DNA from: Lysobacter solisilvae
GTDB taxonomy: Bacteria; Pseudomonadota; Gammaproteobacteria; Xanthomonadales; Xanthomonadaceae
Direction: 5' to 3'
DNA length: 64,000 bases
Assembly (NCBI RefSeq): GCF_016613535.2
Contig: NZ_CP071518.1
Span: 1,922,001 to 1,986,000, forward strand
Shown here: positions 21,384 to 31,798 of the stretch, one piece after another
Numbering within the stretch: the stretch's first letter is position 1
How the letters are laid out: each line of letters starts with the position of its first letter
Program-made: the position numbers and the translations under genes
Notes under the pieces: generated by a model
Seen by the model: only the letters and a program-made list of their open reading frames with translations
Told to the model about the DNA's origin: nothing
Databases searched by the model: none

Positions 21384-21755
21384 ATGCGCCACCAGAAAGC
21401 CGGACGTCGTCTCAGCCGTACCACTGCCCATCGCGAAGCGATGTTCAGCAACATGGCTGCGTCCCTGATCAAGCACGGCCTGATCCGCACCACCCTGCCC
21501 AAGGCCAAGGAACTGCGCCGCGTCGCCGAGCCGCTCATCACGCTTGCCAAGGTCGATGGCGTTGCCAACCGCCGCCTGGCCTTCTCGCGCCTGCGCGACA
21601 AGGAAGCCGTCGGCACGCTGTTCACGACGCTGGGCCCGCGTTACCAGTCCCGTCCGGGCGGCTACCTGCGCATCCTCAAGTGCGGTTTCCGCGCTGGTGA
21701 CAATGCGCCGATGGCCTACGTCGAACTGGTCGACCGCCCCGCAGCGGCGGAATAA
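21384..21755 (+). CDS. rplQ: 50S ribosomal protein L17
   Basis: L17 (123 residues; [19 protein letters not shown]) is the last gene of the alpha operon and lies near the tunnel exit. The [23 protein letters not shown] segment is typical. The open frame runs upstream to 21240 but only the ATG at 21384 fits. Confidence 0.97.
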
Positions 21756-21788
21756 GACGCTCCCCGGCTTGCGCCGGGTCGCTCGCAC

Positions 21789-21823
21789 AAAAGCCTCGGC
21801 ATGTTGCCGGGGCTTTTGCGTTT
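21789..21823 (+). terminator. Intrinsic terminator of the ribosomal gene block
   Basis: Stem aaaagcc-t-cggca / tgccg-g-ggctttt (13 pairs, one G-U) with a tgt loop, followed by ttttgcgttt. This is a classical Rho-independent terminator, 33 nt after rplQ. The rest of the gap to 22066 holds a second hairpin (21852-21876) and no gene. Confidence 0.85.
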
Positions 21824-22066
21824 CTGGAGGGGGCGGGTGTGGCCTCCGGACGGTCCGCTTCGCTTCGCGGCGGACCTCCTGAGGTCTTGGCGGGCTCACC
21901 TGCGCATGCTCGATGCCAGGCGCATCGACTGGCCAACGCCCCGGAAGGGCAAAGCTTCCCGGCAGAACGTGCACCGCCCAATCGATGCATTAAGATGCGA
22001 TGAAGGTCGTATTCACGAACCGCGCGGCGGTCTCGGGCTGCGACGGGGCGCCACGGGAGGGGGTCG

Positions 22067-22777
22067 ATGGGCAAGTTGCTGCGGGGCCTGCACAAGCTGG
22101 GCCTGGTCGAGTTGGACGAGGGCGAGCGGCCTATGGATCCCGGGTCCGTCGATGACCTGGCCGCGCCCGCGGAGGAGACTGCGGCGTCAACGACTCCGGC
22201 CGACACCGGCCCGCCTGACCTCCCGCCCTTCGTGCCCGAGGTTCCCAGCCAGGTCGCCGAGAACCGGGCCTTCGAGGACATCTACGGGGAGCACCGAATC
22301 CCGCCGTCGCCGTACTCGGCCGAGAAACTGGTCAAGGTGCTCGAGGGCCTGCGCGCGATGCAGCCGGAGATGCGCCGGACCGCCGTGATGGCGATCGACA
22401 GCGCCGACGACAGCTGGGCCGTCGAGGACGCCGTGCTCGACGCGCAGCGCAAGATCAAGGCGCTGGAGGCCGCCAAGCAGGGCCTCCTGCAGGCCGCGCA
22501 GGTGGCGGCGTCGCAGGCGCATTCCGACCTCGAGGCGCGTGAGAAGCAACAGCAGGAAACGATCACCCACATCCGCGGCCAGATCAGCGAACTCGAGGCG
22601 ATGCTCGCGCGCGAAGTGGAAGGCGCGGCCCGCGACAAGGCCGAGATCCAGGCCGCCAAGCGCGCGACGGAAGAAGCCTGCCTGCGCGAACGCATGCGGC
22701 TGGATTCGCAGATCGACGTGCTCCAGGAGATCCCACGCACGTTCGGCGCCGACAGCACGCCCTCCGCGAGCCCGTAA
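22067..22777 (+). CDS. Uncharacterised coiled-coil protein, first gene of the PspA/AAA cluster
   Basis: I do not recognise this 236-residue protein. It has no signal peptide or membrane segment. Residues about 20-65 are Pro/Ala/Asp-rich and probably disordered. Residues about 85-215 are Gln/Glu/Ala/Arg-rich and look like a long coiled coil (QRKIKALEAAKQGLLQAAQ). It begins MGKLLRGLHKLGLVEL and sits 66 bp upstream of the OmpA-fused binding protein, as first gene of a nine-gene same-strand run. Long cytoplasmic coiled coils are compatible with a scaffold or adaptor, but no function can be assigned. Confidence 0.8.
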   Translation: MGKLLRGLHKLGLVELDEGERPMDPGSVDDLAAPAEETAASTTPADTGPPDLPPFVPEVPSQVAENRAFEDIYGEHRIPPSPYSAEKLVKVLEGLRAMQPEMRRTAVMAIDSADDSWAVEDAVLDAQRKIKALEAAKQGLLQAAQVAASQAHSDLEAREKQQQETITHIRGQISELEAMLAREVEGAARDKAEIQAAKRATEEACLRERMRLDSQIDVLQEIPRTFGADSTPSASP

Positions 22778-22843
22778 GCGCACCCATTTCCCGTCGCGGC
22801 GCCACGCCTGCCGCGCAATCGAATCACAAGGAGACCGCAATCC

Positions 22844-24514
22844 ATGGCCAAACTCACCCCGCTCGCCAAGGGCCTGATCACCGTCGCCATCCTGGGCGTC
22901 GCGGCCGCAGGCGCCTGGCATCTGGGCCTCAAGAAGATCATGGACAAGGGCGAGGGCGCGGACGTCGCCGCCGGTGCTTCAGGCGATGGCGCCGCGAAAC
23001 CGGCGACTCCGGCCGCGGCCACGAGCGGGTCGGGCCCCCTGGGTTCGGCCGGCAACCCGCTGAAGGTCAGCATCGTCAGCTTCCACGGCTATGCGCCGGC
23101 GCTGGTGGCCAACGGCAAGTCGCTCAAGACCCAGGCCGGTTCGATCTTCGAACGCAATGGCGTCAATGTGGAACTGGTCATCCAGGACGATATCCCGACC
23201 CTGTCGACGATCTTCGAGTCCGGCGCAGCGCATTGCGCGTGGCGCACGTCCGATTTCTGGGCGCAGGAACAACCCAACCTGCGCAATGCCCGCCTCGATG
23301 CGCGCGCGGTGATGATCGTGGACAACACGCAGGGCGCCGACGCGATCATCGCGCGCGACCCGCAGATCAACCGGGTCGAGGACCTGGCCGGCCGCAAGGT
23401 CGCGATGCTGCAATACACGCCTTCCGATGGCATGACCATCGATGCCGTCGACAACTCCAGCCTGAGCGCGCGCCGCAAGGAGTCGGTGAAGTACGTCTAC
23501 ATCAATGCCGAGGAAGGCACCGCGGGCGTGCGCGCCGCGCTGGAGTCGGGCAACGTCGACGCCGCCGCGCTCTGGGATCCGGACCTGTCGCTGGCGCTGA
23601 AGAACATTCCCGGCGCGCACGTCGTCTACTCCACCAAGACCGCCACCAACCTGATCTACGACGTCATCGTGTGCGACAGCCGGGTGCTCAATGACGCTGC
23701 CAGCACCGACGCGGTGCAGGGCCTGGTGACGGGCTGGATGGAAGGCGTGGAAGCCGCCAAGCGCAATCCGGACGATGCCGTCGACGCGCTGGTGAAGACC
23801 GAGGAGTTCTTCACCCTGTTGGCCAAGGACGAGGGGCGGCCCTTCGTCAAGCAGCTGTTCTCCAACCTGGTCTGGACGGGGCTGGACGACAACGCCCGCA
23901 TCCTGGGTCTGGCGGGCGGCACGAACCACTACGAGCGCGTGTACCGCCGATTTGACCAGATCTATCGCAAGGCCGGTGCGCTGGCCAACCCGAACTCGCC
24001 GGTGATCACCCCGCAGGATTCGTTCGACTACCGCTTCATCCGCAAGCTGCTGGAGAAAAACCAGGCTGCCCAGCAGGCTGCCGCGAAACCCGAGTTCACC
24101 TTTACCGCCACCGAGCGCGCGGAGGCCGCGGAGACCGAGGCGGCGGTCACCAAGCCGGTAACGGTCGGCTTCCAGAGTGGCAGCGGTGCGCTGACCAAGC
24201 GCGCTGAGAAGACCATCAACGAGGAGATGGTGCCGTTCATCGAAAACAACGGCTCGGCCTACTTCGAGATCTCCGGCAACACCGACTCGACGGGTGCACA
24301 CGACACGAACATGCGCCTGTCCCGGCAGCGTGCGCAGGCGGTCGTCGAGTACCTGGTGTCGCAATGGGAGTTTGACCGCAACCGCTTCAGCGTGGTCGGA
24401 AACGGTCCCGACAAGCCGCTGTGCGACGAAAGCAACCCGGGCAGCGAAGGCCTGAGCCTGGAAGACTGCCGCGCTTCAAACCGCACGACCCGCATCGGCG
24501 TGCATACGCGCTGA
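22844..24514 (+). CDS. ABC transporter substrate-binding protein fused to an OmpA domain
   Basis: This 556-residue protein has three parts. Residues about 8-28 form one hydrophobic segment (GLITVAILGVAAAGAWHLGL) without an evident cleavage site, so it is probably an N-terminal membrane anchor. Residues about 65-390 resemble the NMT1/THI5-like type 2 periplasmic binding fold (GADAIIARDPQINRVEDLAG, DAAALWDPDLSLALK). Residues about 439-556 are an OmpA-like peptidoglycan-binding domain (SGNTDSTGAHDTNMRLSRQ, then NRTTRI). Permease and ATPase genes follow, so it is the solute receptor of an importer, apparently held between membrane and cell wall. The ligand cannot be told from sequence. Confidence 0.88.
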   Translation: MAKLTPLAKGLITVAILGVAAAGAWHLGLKKIMDKGEGADVAAGASGDGAAKPATPAAATSGSGPLGSAGNPLKVSIVSFHGYAPALVANGKSLKTQAGSIFERNGVNVELVIQDDIPTLSTIFESGAAHCAWRTSDFWAQEQPNLRNARLDARAVMIVDNTQGADAIIARDPQINRVEDLAGRKVAMLQYTPSDGMTIDAVDNSSLSARRKESVKYVYINAEEGTAGVRAALESGNVDAAALWDPDLSLALKNIPGAHVVYSTKTATNLIYDVIVCDSRVLNDAASTDAVQGLVTGWMEGVEAAKRNPDDAVDALVKTEEFFTLLAKDEGRPFVKQLFSNLVWTGLDDNARILGLAGGTNHYERVYRRFDQIYRKAGALANPNSPVITPQDSFDYRFIRKLLEKNQAAQQAAAKPEFTFTATERAEAAETEAAVTKPVTVGFQSGSGALTKRAEKTINEEMVPFIENNGSAYFEISGNTDSTGAHDTNMRLSRQRAQAVVEYLVSQWEFDRNRFSVVGNGPDKPLCDESNPGSEGLSLEDCRASNRTTRIGVHTR

Positions 24515-24705
24515 GCGTTGCCCGTGGTCGAACCCCTGCTCACCATGCCGGCCTCGCGGCTGCAGCGATTCCGCTGCCGGCAACGGCCCGTTTCCACGAT
24601 GCCTGCCAGACTCGGCAGCCGCCTGCGCTTGGCGCGTTCATGGAAGCGGACAATGCAGGCTGCATCGATCCTTCTCCCTAATCGTCGAGCGCCTTCCTGA
24701 TCCGA

Positions 24706-25512
24706 ATGGACAGCACCTTCTGGAATCCCTACGCATCGCTCCCGCCCGCACAGCGTCGCGGTTTGGGCATTGGCGCGGTTGTCGCCGTGCTCGCGATCTG
24801 GGCCGTGCTGGCCGGCCTGTCCATCGTCAGTCCCAACAAGCTGCCCGCGCCATGGGACGTCGCCAAGGCCATGGCCTACCTTGCCTGGGACGGCGAGAAC
24901 GGTCGCAGCCTGCTGCTCAACGCGACGATCTGGTCGGTGGGGCGCATCCTCGCCGCCGGTGCCCTGGTGGTCGCCATCGGCATCCCGGTGGGCGTGATCA
25001 TGGGCGCCTCGCCGCGCATCAACGCGATGTTCTCCCCGCTGGTGGATCCCTTCCGTTCCGCTCCCGTCGTCGCGCTGCTGCCGATCATGGTGATGTGGTT
25101 CGGCATTGGTGAGTGGATGAAGGTGCTGTTCCTGTATGCCGGCGCCGTGGTCTATCTGGTGCCGATGGTGCGCGACGCCGTGCAGGCCGTGCCACAGGCC
25201 TATTGGGTGAGCGCCCGCGACCTGGGCGCCACGCCCTGGGAGGCCGTCCGCCACGCCGTGCTCCCAATGGCGATGCCTCGCATCGCCGACGCGGTGATCG
25301 TGGCCACCTCGGTGATGTGGACCTACATCACCGTGGCCGAGTACGTGAATGCCCGCGAGGGCCTGGGCCAGATGATCCAGAACGCGCGCCGGTTCTCGGC
25401 GATGGACCAGGTGTTTGCCGGCATCATCGTGATCATCGCCTTCGCCCTGATCACTTACCAGTTGATGCGCTACGCCAAACGCCGCCTGTATCCGTGGGAG
25501 ACCGAAGCATGA
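24706..25512 (+). CDS. ABC transporter permease (nitrate/sulfonate/taurine type)
   Basis: This 268-residue inner-membrane protein has about six hydrophobic segments and the binding-protein-dependent permease EAA loop (SARDLGATPWEAVRHAVLP, residues about 168-186), which docks on the ATPase. This family imports small organic or inorganic anions or thiamine precursors; the substrate here is unknown. The ATG follows an 191-bp gap after the binding-protein gene that holds no other gene. The stop overlaps the ATPase start by 4 bp (ATGA), so the two are coupled. Confidence 0.93.
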   Translation: MDSTFWNPYASLPPAQRRGLGIGAVVAVLAIWAVLAGLSIVSPNKLPAPWDVAKAMAYLAWDGENGRSLLLNATIWSVGRILAAGALVVAIGIPVGVIMGASPRINAMFSPLVDPFRSAPVVALLPIMVMWFGIGEWMKVLFLYAGAVVYLVPMVRDAVQAVPQAYWVSARDLGATPWEAVRHAVLPMAMPRIADAVIVATSVMWTYITVAEYVNAREGLGQMIQNARRFSAMDQVFAGIIVIIAFALITYQLMRYAKRRLYPWETEA

Positions 25513-26390
25513 GCACGCCGGCCTCCGCCGCGACATCGGCAACGGGAAGCGCCGCTACGGCGCCCGCCGCGGTCAGCCTGGAACTGCGCGAGATCGTGCA
25601 GGAATACCCGACCGCCGACGGCAAGGGCGTAACCCGGGTCGTCGACAGCCTGAGCCTGCGTTACGACCGGCCCGGCATCAACATGCTGCTCGGGCCTTCC
25701 GGCTGCGGCAAGTCGACGGTGCTGCGCATGATGGGCGGCGTCCGTCCGATCGGCGTCGCCACGCCGACCTCGGGCACGGTGCTGATCGACGGCGCGCCCT
25801 GCGTCGGCGCGCACGACGATTCGGTAATGGTGTTCCAGCGCTACGCGAACCGCCCGGACCTGAGCGTGTGGGACAACGTTGCGTTTCCGTTCCGCCTGGG
25901 CCTGTGGCGCAAGCGCGTCGCCAAGGCGCAGTGGTCCGCGCGGGTCGATGACATCCTGAAGGCCGTCGGGTTGTGGGAGCACCGTGCGCTGCGCCCGGCG
26001 CAGCTTTCCGGCGGCCAGAACCAGCGTGTCGCGCTGGCCCGTGCGCTGGTGCTGGAGCCACGCATCCTCCTGATGGACGAGCCCTTCGCCGCCCTCGACG
26101 CGCAGACGCGCGTGGAGATGCAGCAGCTGCTCAACGACCTCTACGTACGCCGGCCCTGCCTGATCGTGTTCGTGACCCACGACGTCATCGAGGCGCTCGC
26201 ACTGGGAGATCGCGTCACCGTGTTGTCCACGCAGCCGGCGCGGATCGCGGACGAATTCACCATCGATGAGCCGCGCCCGCGCAGCGCCACCTGGCAACGC
26301 GCCACCGACACCGTGAAGCTCGAGGAGCGCGTCCTGAACCAGCTGCACGCCAAGAGCGCCGGCCGCGGCACCGTGGCGGTCTCGATATGA
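25509..26390 (+). CDS. ABC transporter ATP-binding protein
   Basis: A 293-residue ABC ATPase that would energise the preceding permease. Walker A GPSGCGKST lies at residues 62-70, Q-loop VFQRYANRPDLSV follows, the signature is LSGGQNQRVALARAL from residue 166, Walker B LLMDEP has Asp190 and Glu191, and the switch His224 is in FVTHD. The first 25 residues are Ala/Ser/Thr-rich and extend beyond typical SsuB/TauB proteins. The open frame continues upstream inside the permease, but the ATG at 25509 is coupled to its stop. Confidence 0.95.
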   Translation: MSTPASAATSATGSAATAPAAVSLELREIVQEYPTADGKGVTRVVDSLSLRYDRPGINMLLGPSGCGKSTVLRMMGGVRPIGVATPTSGTVLIDGAPCVGAHDDSVMVFQRYANRPDLSVWDNVAFPFRLGLWRKRVAKAQWSARVDDILKAVGLWEHRALRPAQLSGGQNQRVALARALVLEPRILLMDEPFAALDAQTRVEMQQLLNDLYVRRPCLIVFVTHDVIEALALGDRVTVLSTQPARIADEFTIDEPRPRSATWQRATDTVKLEERVLNQLHAKSAGRGTVAVSI

Positions 26391-26394
26391 TGCG

Positions 26395-27264
26395 GTGGCA
26401 GGCGACGAAGTGAATTCCCTGGATCCCAGAGCGCCGGTCAACCAGAAGCCGTCCTACCTGGGCGAGATGCTGACCAGCCCGATCAACGTGAACATCGGCC
26501 TGGTGTCGGTGATCACGGCGACCGTGCTTTCGTTTCCCTTCGGCCTCGCGGGCGCGGCGCTGCCCCTGATCGCGTTCGGGGCCGGCGAGGCCATCGCTGC
26601 GTTGTTCATCCCGTCCTCGCCCACGTTCCGTGACAGGGTCGATCGCCGCCATCGTGTGCGCCAGCGCGAGGCCCGCATCGCCCAGTTGCGCGAGGAGATC
26701 CTGCAACGCGCCGGCGACGAGCACGACAACTGGGAAACCTTCGCCCGCCTGCGCGAACGGGTGGCCTCGGTAACCGAACTGCTGCGGCACCGCAGCACGT
26801 CCCTGGAAGCCCACGAACTGGAAAAGCTCGAAGACGCCACGGCCGACTACCTGGGCCTGTGGCTGGGCGAGTTGAGCATGGCCGAGCGACTGGAATCGGC
26901 GGATGTCGGCCAGCTGCAGCGCCGGGCCGCCGACCTGGGCAAGAAGATCGCCGGCGACGACGCGGATCGTCGCAGCCTGGTCAAGGCCAAGGCCGACCTC
27001 GAGGAACTGATCCAGCGCCACCGTCGCCTGGCCAGCCGCAAGGCTGCCGTCGACGCCGCGTTGCTTTCGTTGCCCGATACCGTCGAGGAGATCTACCAGA
27101 CCCTCATCACCACCCCCGCGGCCGGGGATGCCCGCGGCCAGCTGCAGGAAGCGATCGAGCGCCTGCGCCTGGAAGAAGAACTCGATACTTCCTACACCGT
27201 CGAACTGGACCAGGCGTTGCCACAGCGAGTAGTCCGCGCCGCCGCCCAAACGCAGAAGCACTGA
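26395..27264 (+). CDS. Uncharacterised two-TM coiled-coil protein
   Basis: This 289-residue protein is not recognised. Residues about 31-72 form two closely spaced hydrophobic helices (NIGLVSVITATVLSFPFG and GAALPLIAFGAGEAIAAL), giving a hairpin anchor. The rest is charged and helical with likely coiled coils (residues about 80-130 and 160-250). I chose the GTG at 26395, 4 bp after the ATPase stop; a second GTG at 26410 is an alternative. Its place between an ABC importer and the PspA/AAA genes suggests a membrane platform linking the two, which is inference from order only. Confidence 0.8.
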   Translation: MAGDEVNSLDPRAPVNQKPSYLGEMLTSPINVNIGLVSVITATVLSFPFGLAGAALPLIAFGAGEAIAALFIPSSPTFRDRVDRRHRVRQREARIAQLREEILQRAGDEHDNWETFARLRERVASVTELLRHRSTSLEAHELEKLEDATADYLGLWLGELSMAERLESADVGQLQRRAADLGKKIAGDDADRRSLVKAKADLEELIQRHRRLASRKAAVDAALLSLPDTVEEIYQTLITTPAAGDARGQLQEAIERLRLEEELDTSYTVELDQALPQRVVRAAAQTQKH

Positions 27265-27265
27265 C

Positions 27266-28123
27266 ATGAGCACCGTCACCACCACCGAACTCCAGCAGCT
27301 CTGCGATTTCCGGCAGCACCAGGACGCCGTGCGCGATACGCTCGCCGCCGCGCTGGCCCATCCGGTTTCGCGCCTGCGCTTTCTCGGCCGCTATTCGAGC
27401 TGGAACGGCTTCTTCGGCTCCGGCGTGGCCACGCTCGCCGGCAAGATCGGCCGTGCCCGCGGTTGCTTCGTCGATGCCGCGCAGCCGATCGCCGCGATCG
27501 CCGACCGCAGCGTCTACGTCGCGAGTTTCTTCTTCGACGCGGCGCGCGACGAGTTCGACGACCGCGATACCGTCCATCGCGACACCCACCGCTGCCTGGC
27601 GCAGTCCATGCTCAAGGGCGCCATCGACCACGCACGGCAGGCGCAGGCGATGGACGACAACGCGCTCGCCGGCGTGTTGTCCGACCCGGCCTGGCTCAGC
27701 GCGCTCAACGCACGCGTGGCGGCGGGGTACGGCAACGGCACGCCGGACGATCTGCCGCACCTGTTCGCCGGCATCGGGTATCACCTGGGCTCGGAACTGC
27801 TGGCCGACCAGGAGTTCTCGATCATCGATCGCACCCTGCACGAACTGGCGCCGGAACTGGTGGCGTACCTGAAGGATGCCCGCGTCAACATCGCGGGGCA
27901 GGAACACCGCGCATACCAGTGGATCGCGATCCACTCCGGGCACGGCGGCGGTGCCGAGGCCGATCACTTCGAGTGGGCAACCCAGGGCGTCCGGCTGGCG
28001 TTCCGCTTCGTGCCGCAGGCGCAACACGACGGCCTGCGCGACCACCTGCACCGCGGCTTCCGCGAATTCGCCCGCGACCACCGCGAATTCTTCCAGCGCG
28101 TCAATTCCGACGCGACCCCCTGA
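27266..28123 (+). CDS. Uncharacterised soluble protein of the PspA/AAA cluster
   Basis: A 285-residue protein with no signal peptide or TM segment that I can see and no family that I recognise. It looks all-helical and is rich in His, Asp and Glu, notably DTVHRDTH (His104, His108), GQEH (His214) and HSGHGGGAEADHFEW (His223, His226, His234). This spacing could bind a metal; a heme-oxygenase/TENA-like helical fold is one possibility, held weakly. It starts one base after the previous stop, so it is almost certainly co-translated with its neighbours. Confidence 0.8.
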   Translation: MSTVTTTELQQLCDFRQHQDAVRDTLAAALAHPVSRLRFLGRYSSWNGFFGSGVATLAGKIGRARGCFVDAAQPIAAIADRSVYVASFFFDAARDEFDDRDTVHRDTHRCLAQSMLKGAIDHARQAQAMDDNALAGVLSDPAWLSALNARVAAGYGNGTPDDLPHLFAGIGYHLGSELLADQEFSIIDRTLHELAPELVAYLKDARVNIAGQEHRAYQWIAIHSGHGGGAEADHFEWATQGVRLAFRFVPQAQHDGLRDHLHRGFREFARDHREFFQRVNSDATP

Positions 28124-28158
28124 TCCTCTACGCACGAACAAGCAAAGGAGTAGACCGA

Positions 28159-28866
28159 ATGTCCTCTGTCAACCTGATGGCGCGCCTGGCCAACCTGTGG
28201 CGGGGTTTCGTCTCGCTCTGGGTCTCCGACATCGAGAAGAACCATCCCGAGATCGCCTACGAGAACGCGATCCGCGGCATGGTCGACAAGTACACGAAGC
28301 TGCGCAGCGCCACCGCCGCGATCGTGCGTCGTCGCGAGGAGATCGACGCCCGCCTCACCAGTGACCAGCGCGCCCTGGACCAGGTCAACCGCGACCTCGA
28401 GGCGGCGCTGGCCACCCAGCAGGACGACATCGCGCTGATCCTCATCCAGAAGAAGGAAGCGCTGGACGCGGCCATCGCCGAGCTCAACCAGGACATGCAG
28501 CAGGCCAACGGCGATGCCGAGGAAGCCAAGAGCGCGCTGCTGTCGGTCAAGAGCGAGATCGACAAGCTCAAGGCCGAACGGGACCGCATGCTGGCGCAGA
28601 TGAAGAGCGCCCAGGCCCGGCTGGCGATCCAGGGGCAGCTGGACGGCCTGTCCGTCGACGCCGAGGTGCAGGCGCTGGACAAGGTGCGCGACCACATCAA
28701 GAACACCGTCTCCGAGGCCAAGCTGGCGCGCGAACTGCATGAGTCCGATCTCGACGTGCGCCTGAAGAAGCTGCAGAGCCAGAGCGGCAACATCACCGCC
28801 CAGGCCAAGCTCGACGAGCTCAAGCGCCAGCGCGCCGCGCAGGCGTCCACGCAGCGCCAGATGTAA
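28159..28866 (+). CDS. PspA/IM30-family protein (ESCRT-III superfamily)
   Basis: This 235-residue protein has the PspA/Vipp1 layout: an amphipathic N-terminal helix (MARLANLWRGFVSLWV), then long uninterrupted heptad-rich helices through residue about 200, including IRGMVDKYTKLRSATAAIV and QQDDIALILIQKKEALDAA at the positions of the PspA hairpin. PspA family proteins bind stressed membranes and polymerise like ESCRT-III. Start at the ATG at 28159 after aaaggag. No pspF, pspB or pspC gene is nearby, so this is not the E. coli psp operon; its partner seems to be the AAA ATPase encoded next. Confidence 0.85.
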   Translation: MSSVNLMARLANLWRGFVSLWVSDIEKNHPEIAYENAIRGMVDKYTKLRSATAAIVRRREEIDARLTSDQRALDQVNRDLEAALATQQDDIALILIQKKEALDAAIAELNQDMQQANGDAEEAKSALLSVKSEIDKLKAERDRMLAQMKSAQARLAIQGQLDGLSVDAEVQALDKVRDHIKNTVSEAKLARELHESDLDVRLKKLQSQSGNITAQAKLDELKRQRAAQASTQRQM

Positions 28867-28939
28867 GGGCAGGGCGGGGCGACGCCGCCGCCGCCGCCGT
28901 CGCGTTTCTCAGTCCCCTCCTTCGAGCTACCCGCCGCCC

Positions 28940-30766
28940 GTGACGACCGCACCCGCCGACAAGCCCGCACTGCCCGCCTGGGCCGAAACGGTCCGCCGCA
29001 AGTACCTGGGCGGCGAGACCGGCATGTTCGTGCTGTATCGCAACGTCTTCGACGAGATCCTCTACGACGGGCGGCAGTACGACGTGATCGAGTTCCTGTC
29101 GCAGGTGCTGCTGGCCGGCAACAAGCAGCATGTCATCGCCTATGACCCGTCGGAAGGCCTGCGTGCGGTGGGCGAGGACCGGACGGTTGCCGAGCCCGCG
29201 CTGCGCGCCATGGCCGAGGGCGGCGATCCGCTGGCCTTCATCGAGCGGCGCCTGTCGGGCGGCGTGCACCATGCGGTCATCATCAACTACGCCGGCAGCG
29301 TGGCGCCCGCGGGCGAGGAGAACCTGCTCGCCCAGCAGGACCGCATGAACGCCATCCGCCTGCACCGCTGGTCGCAGAGCCAGTGGCTCACCGGCGGCGA
29401 CAACATCGTCTTCCTGCTCAGTGAATCGCTGGCCGAGCTCAACGCCAAGCTCGTGGCCAATCCGCGGATCGCGGCGATCGAAGTTCCGCTTCCCGACGCC
29501 GCCGAGCGGGCGGCGATCATCCGGCATTGCGACCCGGACATCGACGACCCGCACGTCGCGCGCCTGGCCGAACACAGCGCGGGCCTGCGCGCCGTGCAGA
29601 TCGCGCAGATCCTGCGGCCGCGCCTGGACAAGGGCATGGACGAGGCCGAACGGCGCGCGCTGGTCCTCTCGTTGCTGGGCGACAGTGCCAACGCTGCTGC
29701 GCGCGCCGACAAGCTGACGGCGGTCACCGCGGGCATGGAGGCGCAGGAGATCCGCAACCTCATCAATCCCGAGCACCCGCTGCCCGAGCACGACGACCGA
29801 GATCCGTACGCCGATGTGATCGAACTGGTCCACCGGCGCAAGCGCGAGATCATCGAGAAGGAATGCGCCGGGCTGATCGAGTTCGTCGACGCACGCCACG
29901 GCCTGGATGCCGTCGGCGGCAACGAGGCGATCAAGGCCGAGCTGCTGCGCGTGGCCGAAGCGCTCAAGTCCGGCGACCGGCTGCGCGCGCCGATGGGCAT
30001 GCTGTTCGTCGGCCCGATGGGAACCGGCAAGACCTTCGTCGCCAAGGCCTTCGTCAAGACCTCCGGCCTGAGCGCGGTCACGCTCAAGAACTTCCGCTCC
30101 AAATGGGTCGGCTCGACCGAGGCCAACCTGGAGAAGGTTCTGGGCATGGTGAAGGCACTGGGTCCGATCATCCTCATCATCGACGAGGGCGACCGCAGCT
30201 TCGGCAGCCAGAGCGAGGATGGCGACGGCGGCACGTCCTCGCGCGTGGTGGCGCGCATCAAGGAGTTCATGAGCGACACCGACAACCGTGGTCTGGTCCT
30301 GTTCGTCCTGATGACCAACCGCCCCGACAAGCTCGACATCGACATCAAGCGCGCGGGCCGCCTGGACGTGAAGATCCCCTTCTTCTACATGGACACCCGC
30401 GAGGATGTGGCCGCCGTGCTGGGTGCGCTGTGCCGCCGTTACCAGCTGCCGATTCCTGAAGCCGACCTTGTCGCTTCGCCTGTCGTCGAGAAGCTGATCG
30501 GCTACTCGAACGCCGACCTCGAGGCCGTGGTGCTGCAGGCGCTCGCCGTCGCGCAGCGCGACGGCGTGGACGCGGGCTGGAAGCACTTCGAGGAAGCCGC
30601 AAACGACTACCTGCCCTCGCGCGATGCGCGCATGCTCGAGTACATGGAGCTGCTGGCCGTGTTCGAATGCTCGCGCCGTTCGATGTTGCCCGCCAAGTAC
30701 CGCGACCTGCCGTCCGTGCAGCTGCGCGACGCCCTCGCGCAGATCAAGCGCGAACTCCACCTGTGA
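28940..30766 (+). CDS. AAA ATPase paired with PspA
   Basis: A 608-residue protein with a GTG start. Residues 1-330 are a domain I do not recognise ([16 protein letters not shown]...), possibly a degenerate ATPase-like domain. Residues about 330-530 are one classical AAA module: Walker A GPMGTGKT (358-365), pore loop SKWVG with Trp389, Walker B IIDEGD (Asp415, Glu416), sensor-1 Asn460 in MTNRPD, and the arginine-finger box KRAGRLD with Arg474. The aromatic pore loop indicates substrate threading. The KWVG loop resembles Vps4-like proteins, the AGRLD box resembles the FtsH/p97 group. Inferred role: remodelling the PspA polymer. Confidence 0.88.
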
Positions 30767-30801
30767 TCCAGGCCGAACCCGGCCCCACCGAGGATTCCCC
30801 C

Positions 30802-31242
30802 ATGAACGACCTCACTCCGCAACAGGCCCGCATCATCGCCCACGGCCTCTACGACCTGGCCAACACCGACGGCGTGCATCCCGCCGAAACCATGCTCGTG
30901 CAGGAGTTCTACGGCGCCGCGCAGGGCGAATTCGGCGGCGCAGGCGACCTCTCGGTGCTGGCCGCAACGCCCTTCGACATCGCCCAGGCCGCGCAGGTGC
31001 TCGACTCGATCGAACTGCGCGGCGTGTTCGTGCATTCATGCGTGCTGCTGGCCTACGCCGACGGCCGTTATTCCGCCGCCGAGCGCGCCCGCGTCGCGGC
31101 GCACGCGCAGGCGCTGGGGCTCTCGGCCGAGCAGCTGGCCACCATCGAGGACGGCGTGAGCGACCATCTGATGCAGCAGATCGCGCGCATCGAGAACATC
31201 GACGCCCTGGGCGAAGTCGCCCGGGAACTCAAGCAGTCCTGA
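30802..31242 (+). CDS. TerB-like protein
   Basis: A 146-residue helical protein without signal peptide. The repeated pattern of an acidic loop before a helix with Glu (ANTDGVHPAETMLVQ, residues about 20-34, and AYADGRYSAAERARVAAHA, about 86-104) is the TerB / DUF533-like pattern that binds metal in tellurite-resistance proteins. TerB-like domains are often found with membrane-stress modules. The ATG at 30802 is 35 bp after the AAA gene; an open extension into that gene is ignored. Last gene of the cluster. Confidence 0.75.
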   Translation: MNDLTPQQARIIAHGLYDLANTDGVHPAETMLVQEFYGAAQGEFGGAGDLSVLAATPFDIAQAAQVLDSIELRGVFVHSCVLLAYADGRYSAAERARVAAHAQALGLSAEQLATIEDGVSDHLMQQIARIENIDALGEVARELKQS

Positions 31243-31285
31243 AGCACACCAAGCCCCCATCCTTCCATCGTCGAAGCGTGCCTGC

Positions 31286-31798
31286 ATGAATCCCAATCCC
31301 CTTGCCTGGTCCTTCCGCGCGCAATGCGCCCTGGGTCTGGCCACCTGCGCCGCACTGCTCGGCTTCGCGTTCTACACGCAGTTCCGCGACGTCAATCCGC
31401 TCGACCCCTGCAATCTGTGCATCCTGCAGCGGGTCGCCTTCGCGGCGACGGCGCTCGCGTTCCTGCTCGGGGCGCTGCACGCGCCCGGCGGGGCCGCGGG
31501 CCGGCGCGTGTACGCGGGACTGGCCCTGCTCGCGTCCGCCGTCGGCGCTGCGATCGCGGCCCGCCATGTCTGGATCACCACGCTGCCCGAGGACGCCCGC
31601 CCCAGCTGCGGCGCGCCGCTTGAATTCATGGTCCAGGCCAGCGGCTATCTCGATGCCGTGCGCAAGGTGCTGACCGGCTCGGGTGAATGCGGCAAGGTCG
31701 ACTGGACGTTCCTGGGCCTGTCGATGCCGGCCTGGAGCTTGGTCTGGTTTGTCGCATTGCTGCTGTGGGCGGGCTACGTGGGATTTCGCCGCCGCTGA
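31286..31798 (+). CDS. dsbB: Disulfide bond formation protein B
   Basis: DsbB reoxidises DsbA using quinone. The 170-residue protein has four hydrophobic segments and both periplasmic Cys pairs: Cys42-Cys45 in DPCNLCILQR and Cys108 with Cys135 (ARPSCGAP and GSGECGKVDW). It starts 43 bp after the TerB-like gene on the same strand, so it may be read through from that cluster, but the function is general. No dsbA in the window. Confidence 0.95.
   Translation: MNPNPLAWSFRAQCALGLATCAALLGFAFYTQFRDVNPLDPCNLCILQRVAFAATALAFLLGALHAPGGAAGRRVYAGLALLASAVGAAIAARHVWITTLPEDARPSCGAPLEFMVQASGYLDAVRKVLTGSGECGKVDWTFLGLSMPAWSLVWFVALLLWAGYVGFRRR

Follow-up and report, generated by a model that had tools for sequence, protein, structure and literature searches.

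A nine-gene cassette of Lysobacter solisilvae places a receptor predicted to be fixed to the cell wall beside a PspA-family protein and a classical AAA ATPase. It lies on the forward strand of the window, the 64,000-nucleotide stretch of contig NZ_CP071518.1 (positions 1,922,001 to 1,986,000) analysed here, and its open reading frames (ORFs), g1 to g9, are listed in Table 1. That the cassette is a real unit is near certain. We suggest, giving the idea an even chance, that it links a PspA polymer and a dedicated AAA motor, by way of membrane proteins, with a peptidoglycan-bound solute sensor. The core of the cassette is not new, as it was predicted in silico in the operon descriptions of Ravi et al. 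(2024, mSystems, PMC11237479). Sequence comparison adds that the tethered receptor, anchored in most lineages, appears to be the constant part, not the transporter. It further indicates that g1 accompanies the receptor and that the cassette can include TerB and a heme-oxygenase-like gene.

We compared the cassette with its relatives by scanning GTDB species genomes with an alignment of the AAA ATPase g8, and the best 80 of 127 relatives were taken as loci. Loci in which g8 is preceded by at least 7 kb and followed by at least 0.7 kb of sequence are termed full-flank (n=48); the other 32 of the 80 were omitted because a contig end was near. Family profiles were built in three rounds. An ATP-binding cassette (ABC) ATPase was scored as present only if it reached at least 240 bits on the same strand, and the g5 gene of L094, which lies on the opposite strand, was counted as present. 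PspA was found in 41 of the full-flank loci, TerB in 29 and g6 in seven, while g5, a g1-type protein and a peptidoglycan-tethered binding protein were each found in 38. These were the same 38 loci for all three families by hidden Markov model (HMM) search, and all of them also carried PspA. Their g1-type protein was either g1 or F9, the counterpart in Acidobacteriota and Myxococcota, which matches g1 with an hhalign probability of 89.7 (E 1.8e-6). None of the ten receptor-less loci had g1 or g5 by HMM; one of them, L118, had a short member of the g5 cluster by BLAST.

The solute-binding protein with an OmpA domain (SBP-OmpA), the ABC genes, g5, PspA and the AAA gene occurred jointly in 31 of the 48 full-flank loci, a combination beyond chance. 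All but two of these (L053, where g1 comes last, and L094) share one of five closely similar gene orders. The order g1-g2-g3-g4-g5-PspA-AAA-TerB was found in 11 loci, with g6 in six more and without TerB in two. The order g1b-PspA-g2-g3-g4-g5-AAA was found in eight Acidobacteriota and, with TerB added, in two Myxococcota. Gene orders are kept across Pseudomonadota, Acidobacteriota, Myxococcota and one member of the Thermodesulfobacteriota. Pairwise distances between families correlated with r from 0.66 to 0.96, uncorrected for shared ancestry, including AAA with g5 (0.95), with PspA (0.90) and with TerB (0.95). A reading made from the sequence alone had proposed all nine genes as one unit, to be given up if its unrecognised genes and the PspA/AAA pair were not co-conserved with the ABC genes. 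In the gene-neighbourhood comparison, the PspA/AAA pair, the ABC genes, g1 and g5 are co-conserved (31 of 48 and 38 of 38 full-flank loci). This does not extend to g6 (7 of 48), and with TerB in 29 of 48 the nine genes together are not supported as a fixed set.

The receptor g2 combines an OmpA domain (52.0 bits, cut-off 27.2) with an NMT1 domain (24.3 bits, cut-off 20.5) in Pfam. Its transmembrane (TM)-like segment covers residues 4-22, and residues 1-40 lack Cys. PDB profile matches were to OmpA domains and to the aliphatic sulphonate-binding protein 2x26 (E 8e-10), and g2 appears to belong to an SsuA/TauA-like family. Together with the permease g3 and the ATPase g4, it resembles components of Ssu/Tau importers, yet all three score below the curated substrate-specific cut-offs: 65.6 against 163.5 for g2 (SsuA_fam), 147.1 against 342 for g3 (TauC) and 168.3 against 395 for g4 (aliphatic sulfonates). 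The anchor helix carries the motif LT[PG]x[AST]K, which was found in strict form in 34 of 40 SBP-OmpA proteins, the remaining six having near variants.

A different receptor was found in 14 of the 80 loci, where a profile search assigned the gene preceding g5 to another family; seven of these are among the 38 receptor-bearing full-flank loci. The order g1-anchor/Sel1-PGB/PotF-g5-PspA-AAA-TerB, in which PGB stands for peptidoglycan-binding, occurred in seven full-flank loci. Pfam, run on four of the 14 swapped receptors, gave two PG_binding_1 domains and an SBP_bac_8 domain in each. The solved structures nearest to the swapped receptor of L064 were 3ttk, a polyamine transport protein that we take to be SpuD (E 8e-66), and 1a99, a putrescine-binding protein (E 1e-58). 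When aligned with what are presumably the ligand-site residues of PotF, the Trp, the Tyr and three Asp are kept, and two other aromatic positions are Phe. By sequence, the ligand of this Comamonadaceae variant is probably a polyamine. The swapped receptor has, by eye, a secretion signal instead of a membrane anchor. No permease match was found in the stretches examined for the 14 loci, and no ABC ATPase match across the whole stretch in 12 of them, some stretches being short. Since these loci keep a wall-tethered binding protein without a permease match, transport looks dispensable.

In the swapped loci, the unrelated PotF-like protein with its peptidoglycan-binding domains takes the place of receptor, permease and ATPase, and the old anchor persists as a separate short gene. 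The short gene opens with the TM segment of g2 (ASLTPLSKGLLGLAVVGAMASAVWHLGLK in L064 versus AKLTPLAKGLITVAILGVAAAGAWHLGLK) and continues with Sel1-like repeats. All 12 complete short proteins from Comamonadaceae-type loci have the anchor motif. Mean identity of the anchor segment between the SBP-OmpA group and the short proteins was 0.44, compared with 0.10 (maximum 0.31) for shuffled segments. Survival of the TM segment after loss of its former domain points to a membrane partner. Apart from the short protein, g5 is the sole cassette protein of the swapped loci in which a membrane segment was seen, and we infer that anchor helix and g5 may be coupled. The hydrophobic stretches of g5 fall within residues 29-73, and its AlphaFold2 model is all-helical with a mean predicted local distance difference test score of 84.2.

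We placed the swapped loci in a tree of 70 rows (the window, 61 of the 80 loci and eight further loci; short search, no bootstrap, midpoint root). All 12 swapped rows formed one clade with a Shimodaira-Hasegawa-like approximate likelihood ratio (SH-aLRT) support of 97, inside a clade of SBP-OmpA and ABC loci with a support of 100. Because of this nesting, the swap is most simply a derived state. Next to the swapped clade stands L113, which has PspA and AAA, followed by L095, which comes from Comamonadaceae and carries both SBP-OmpA and the ABC genes.

A further receptor-bearing form, type-D, came from a separate search of 60 genomes that included the window's own; its six loci, from the window's taxonomic order, are outside the 80. 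They contain PspA, a shorter AAA protein, a protein of 282-290 aa and an SBP/OmpA protein. A single profile of the six 282-290-aa proteins matched g5 at 95.5% by hhalign (E 1.6e-8). No permease match was found in the six stretches examined and no ABC match in five of them (one stretch being just 6.4 kb); in L040, an ATPase lies on the opposite strand. Judged by the type-D gene set, the minimum common to receptor-bearing forms consists of a wall-tethered binding protein, g5, PspA and AAA. The importer had been taken as a fixed part of the cassette in the sequence-only reading, and this is not supported. Seven of the 38 receptor-bearing full-flank loci have neither a permease match nor an ABC ATPase within the cassette, and the type-D loci have no ABC genes on the strand of their PspA-AAA-g5-SBP/OmpA set.

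Across the family of the AAA ATPase g8 (n=91), Walker A lies in the C-terminal half of every member, the Walker B pattern is present in 90, and no member has an N-terminal P-loop. The pore-loop pattern ends in [KR]WVG in 89 of the 91 (KWVG in 83, RWVG in six). Among the 60 of 262 matches to solved structures that were listed, the second AAA domains of Cdc48/VCP-type proteins were best, and the N-terminal half of g8 gave a weak alignment, at best E 0.011, with the second half of AAA domains. Vps4 was considered and rejected as an identity for g8, as Walker A and B are present but Pfam detected no MIT domain up to E 0.1. From what is known of the two families, PspA and AAA likely act as polymer and motor. 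The g7 protein scored 26.3 bits against the profile of the E. coli-type PspA equivalog (TIGR02977), for which the cut-off is 242.95. A stronger PspA_IM30 match lies elsewhere in the genome (G000:C1:3559915-3560586, 124.9 bits, E 5.7e-36), which makes the PspA of the cassette a divergent extra copy.

No cassette partner was found near the g8-family AAA genes of L092, L117 and L121-L124, and the divergent AAA relatives of G045 (L039) and G054 (L045) had no adjoining PspA or receptor match. Distant relatives, nearly full-length and about 26% identical, are carried by the Aneurinibacillus and Paenibacillus plasmids NZ_CP116888.1 and NC_014628.2.

In the coupling that we suggest, ligand binding in the tethered receptor, or altered spacing between wall and membrane, would act through the anchor helix on the membrane hairpin of g5. 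The g5 protein would then recruit or release PspA at the inner face of the membrane, and the AAA ring, whose pore loop contains a Trp, would unthread PspA subunits and reset the polymer. Both g1 and TerB could be cytosolic adaptors, the permease and ATPase would import the same ligand in most lineages, and g6 in the window genome would probably oxidise a small molecule, which might be a lipid or the ligand itself. Signalling from the receptor to PspA and AAA is plausible, and we would put it at about one half. A link between a wall-bound receptor and a PspA/AAA membrane machine, drawn earlier from the sequence alone, is to this extent supported, as an inference. More tentatively, the cassette may be a ligand-controlled bacterial ESCRT-like machine (ESCRT, endosomal sorting complex required for transport). 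Its wall-tethered sensor would set the assembly state of PspA through the g5 hairpin and an anchor helix with an exchangeable head, and its dedicated AAA ring would disassemble the polymer. It is an equally tentative part of this proposal that the sensor head was exchanged in evolution, from SBP-OmpA to a polyamine-type peptidoglycan-binding SBP, with loss of the transporter, much as signalling systems swap their sensor modules. With polymer, motor, membrane link and sensor in one compact cassette, motor action and input signal become testable in one protein set. The swap points to parts that are possibly essential (anchor helix, g5, PspA, AAA) and others that are not (permease, ATPase, g6), and it suggests polyamines as a first ligand class.

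Several observations count against the coupling of a sensor to PspA and AAA. Ten of the 48 full-flank loci have AAA without a receptor, and the presence of PspA in three of these (L049, L113 and L118) shows that PspA and AAA can exist without one; L113 is also the nearest sister of the swapped clade. SBP-OmpA distances correlate less with those of PspA (0.68) and TerB (0.66). The anchor motif was in none of the five type-D receptors examined and is thus not universal. The profile-profile match of g5 to PspA reached just 10% by hhalign, and fold searches with g5 gave no significant match, so that a likeness to ESCRT-III is not demonstrable. Two of the swapped loci do have ABC ATPase matches. 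In L060, a generic one lies on the upstream side of g1 with another gene in between, its 213 bits being too low to be counted, and L078 has three on the opposite strand. The PotF-like protein could also serve an unlinked transporter, and transporter-free signalling is not proven.

The same data bear on other explanations. The cassette might be an ordinary importer that takes up a sulfonate- or amine-like solute, in which PspA, AAA and TerB merely maintain the membrane or the transporter assembly and nothing acts as a sensor. The ABC genes are indeed within the cassette in 31 of the 38 receptor-bearing full-flank loci, g2 to g4 have their Ssu/Tau likeness, and a link between remodelling and solute transport is suggested in the operon passages of Ravi et al. 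(PMC11237479). We nonetheless consider this rather improbable, given the wall-tethered binding protein without a permease match in 14 of the 80 loci overall, seven of them among the 38 full-flank ones, and in the six type-D loci. ABC ATPase matches are likewise missing across the examined stretch, in some cases a short one, in 12 of 14 swapped and five of six type-D loci. For an importer, a binding protein fixed to the wall is moreover unusual.

Mechanical envelope repair is less probable still. Here the OmpA or peptidoglycan-binding protein would gauge the distance between wall and membrane in a MotB-like manner, with the solute-binding domain as a structural spacer. MotB-type proteins likewise have a TM anchor and an OmpA domain, and PspA-family proteins respond to membrane stress. 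However, what replaced the receptor in Comamonadaceae is itself a solute-binding protein, has three Asp of the presumed PotF site kept in the alignment, and by eye bears a secretion signal, not a membrane anchor. We regard as very improbable a mobile defence-like island, in which PspA and AAA protect the membrane during phage attack. Its patchy distribution, its position at a housekeeping junction and a weak similarity of the AAA domain to IetA in PADLOC (E 1.9e-12) would fit this idea, but what PADLOC matched in the nine proteins seems to be generic similarity of the AAA, ABC and OmpA/MotB kind, and the receptor and ABC logic is a poor fit. The coupling of a wall-fixed sensor to PspA and AAA is the reading we prefer.

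Table 1. Features of the cassette, in window coordinates.
Feature	Position	Strand	Remarks
g1	22067-22777	+	236 aa, soluble, coiled-coil-like; no Pfam family over cut-off
g2, receptor: N-terminal TM anchor, NMT1/SsuA-like solute-binding domain, OmpA-type peptidoglycan-binding domain	22844-24514	+	Pfam
Anchor helix of g2, residues 2-30	22847-22933	+	element retained in relatives with receptor swap
g3, ABC permease (TauC/SsuC-like)	24706-25512	+	BPD_transp_1 PF00528, 90.2 bits (cut-off 26.4)
g4, ABC ATPase	25509-26390	+	ABC_tran PF00005, 90.9 bits (cut-off 25)
g5, predicted membrane link with long helices and a hydrophobic hairpin in its N-terminal part	26395-27264	+	GTG start; no Pfam family over cut-off
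g6, predicted heme-oxygenase-like (HDO-type) metalloenzyme	27266-28123	+	no Pfam family over cut-off
g7, PspA/IM30 family	28159-28866	+	PspA_IM30 PF04012, 62.6 bits (cut-off 33.9)
g8, classical AAA ATPase, N-terminal half P-loop-less, KWVG pore loop	28940-30766	+	GTG start; AAA PF00004, 89.3 bits (cut-off 21.2)
g9, TerB-domain protein	30802-31242	+	TerB PF05099, 26.4 bits (cut-off 24.4)

The nine same-strand ORFs span 22067-31242 and are separated by 66, 191, -4, 4, 1, 35, 73 and 35 bp, with 43 bp from g9 to dsbB. Layout and spacings agree with those described in the sequence-only reading. The families it named (a type-2 binding protein with OmpA, permease, ATPase, PspA/IM30, AAA and TerB) all score over their Pfam cut-offs, and the three proteins it left unrecognised are g1, g5 and g6. 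A promoter consensus scan found no sites against 0.6 expected, which is scarcely informative at 67% GC (guanine plus cytosine).

Upstream, the cassette borders a ribosomal-protein operon at its rplQ end, with rplQ identified by sequence, and downstream it borders dsbB (Pfam). It fills the junction exactly (window 21755-22067 and 31242-31286). In all ten relatives tested, including both same-genus genomes as well as G015 and G046, no more than a few hundred bases separate rplQ from dsbB, which indicates either a gain of the cassette at this site or its retention here alone. Full-length g8 was found at E < 1e-150 in two of 59 other genomes searched, G046 (67%) and G015 (47%), and a shorter relative (E 1e-49 to 1e-64) in eight more. 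The two same-genus genomes among the 59 showed general AAA similarity to g8 at most. GC content (0.677 versus 0.671) does not mark the cassette as foreign. The window genome is one contig of 3.93 Mb. The cassette appears to be a horizontally moved, transferable unit.

The g6 protein is predicted to be a heme-oxygenase-like metalloenzyme. Like the heme-oxygenase-like dimetal oxidases (HDOs; UndA, CADD, HrmI, PolF and SznF), it has a predicted heme-oxygenase-like helical fold and conserved His and carboxylate residues, but it differs from them in the spacing of these residues and in its PspA-operon context. As candidates for the three His and three carboxylate metal ligands expected of an HDO on its core helices, E96, H104, E177, H226, E231 and H234 are invariant in 49 of 49 homologues of at least 60% identity, but H104 is replaced by Tyr in the more distant L054. 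Residues 227-231 form a low-confidence segment of the model near the expected position of core helix 3, a helix described as flexible in apo HDOs in a passage of PMC13108848. No significant sequence match to solved structures was found, and the best-scoring organism-named homologue is from Lysobacter fragariae (78%). In Tahibacter harae and a relative (L049 7934-12400 and L036 11539-16033), g6-PspA-AAA-TerB occurs without adjoining g1-g5, which suggests a place for the heme-oxygenase-like gene on the same side of the cassette as PspA.

Among known systems, the closest are the comparative-genomic operons of Ravi et al. (PMC11237479), in which PspA and TM Snf7-like proteins occur with AAA, ABC ATPase, permease and PBPB-OmpA proteins, for example at OGG56892.1. 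The sequence-only reading knew of no named system with the full set; the core set is already present in these operon descriptions, though unnamed there. Shared are PspA, an ABC ATPase, a permease and a solute- and peptidoglycan-binding protein, together with a helical protein that has TM-like stretches and an AAA protein whose N-terminal half may be an inactive copy. In the relevant passages, ATP-dependent membrane remodelling tied to solute transport is proposed for such operons, and the regulation of assembly of PspA homologues without an AAA ATPase is called unknown. The window has the PspA-family gene and, by Pfam, the ABC ATPase, permease and PBPB-OmpA protein. As for the Snf7-like protein with TM, g5 has TM-like stretches, but its PspA profile match is just 10% and its fold matches are non-significant. 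The weak AAA likeness of the g8 N-terminal half is in line with the AAA proteins reported there, with an active C-terminal and an inactive N-terminal domain. The terms TerB and heme have no occurrences in that main text, and the operon passages do not mention g1, the heme-oxygenase-like gene, the PG_binding_1-PotF-like swap or the conserved anchor helix. Our literature search found no other paper on this gene combination (beyond PMC11237479).

No other ter genes of the Ter (tellurite) operon are among the nine by Pfam and NCBIfam. The classical Psp response (PspF-ABC) has a PspA-family protein in common with the cassette, and by the same databases pspB, pspC and pspF are not among its genes. 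ESCRT-III and Vps4 systems are said to be limited to archaea and eukaryotes. The cassette AAA differs from Vps4 in that no MIT domain was detected and in that, among the structure matches listed, the best are second AAA domains of Cdc48/VCP-type proteins. The two systems are alike in that a polymer of the ESCRT-III superfamily, here PspA, adjoins a classical AAA ATPase, with a KWVG pore loop in the cassette compared with KWMG in Vps4.

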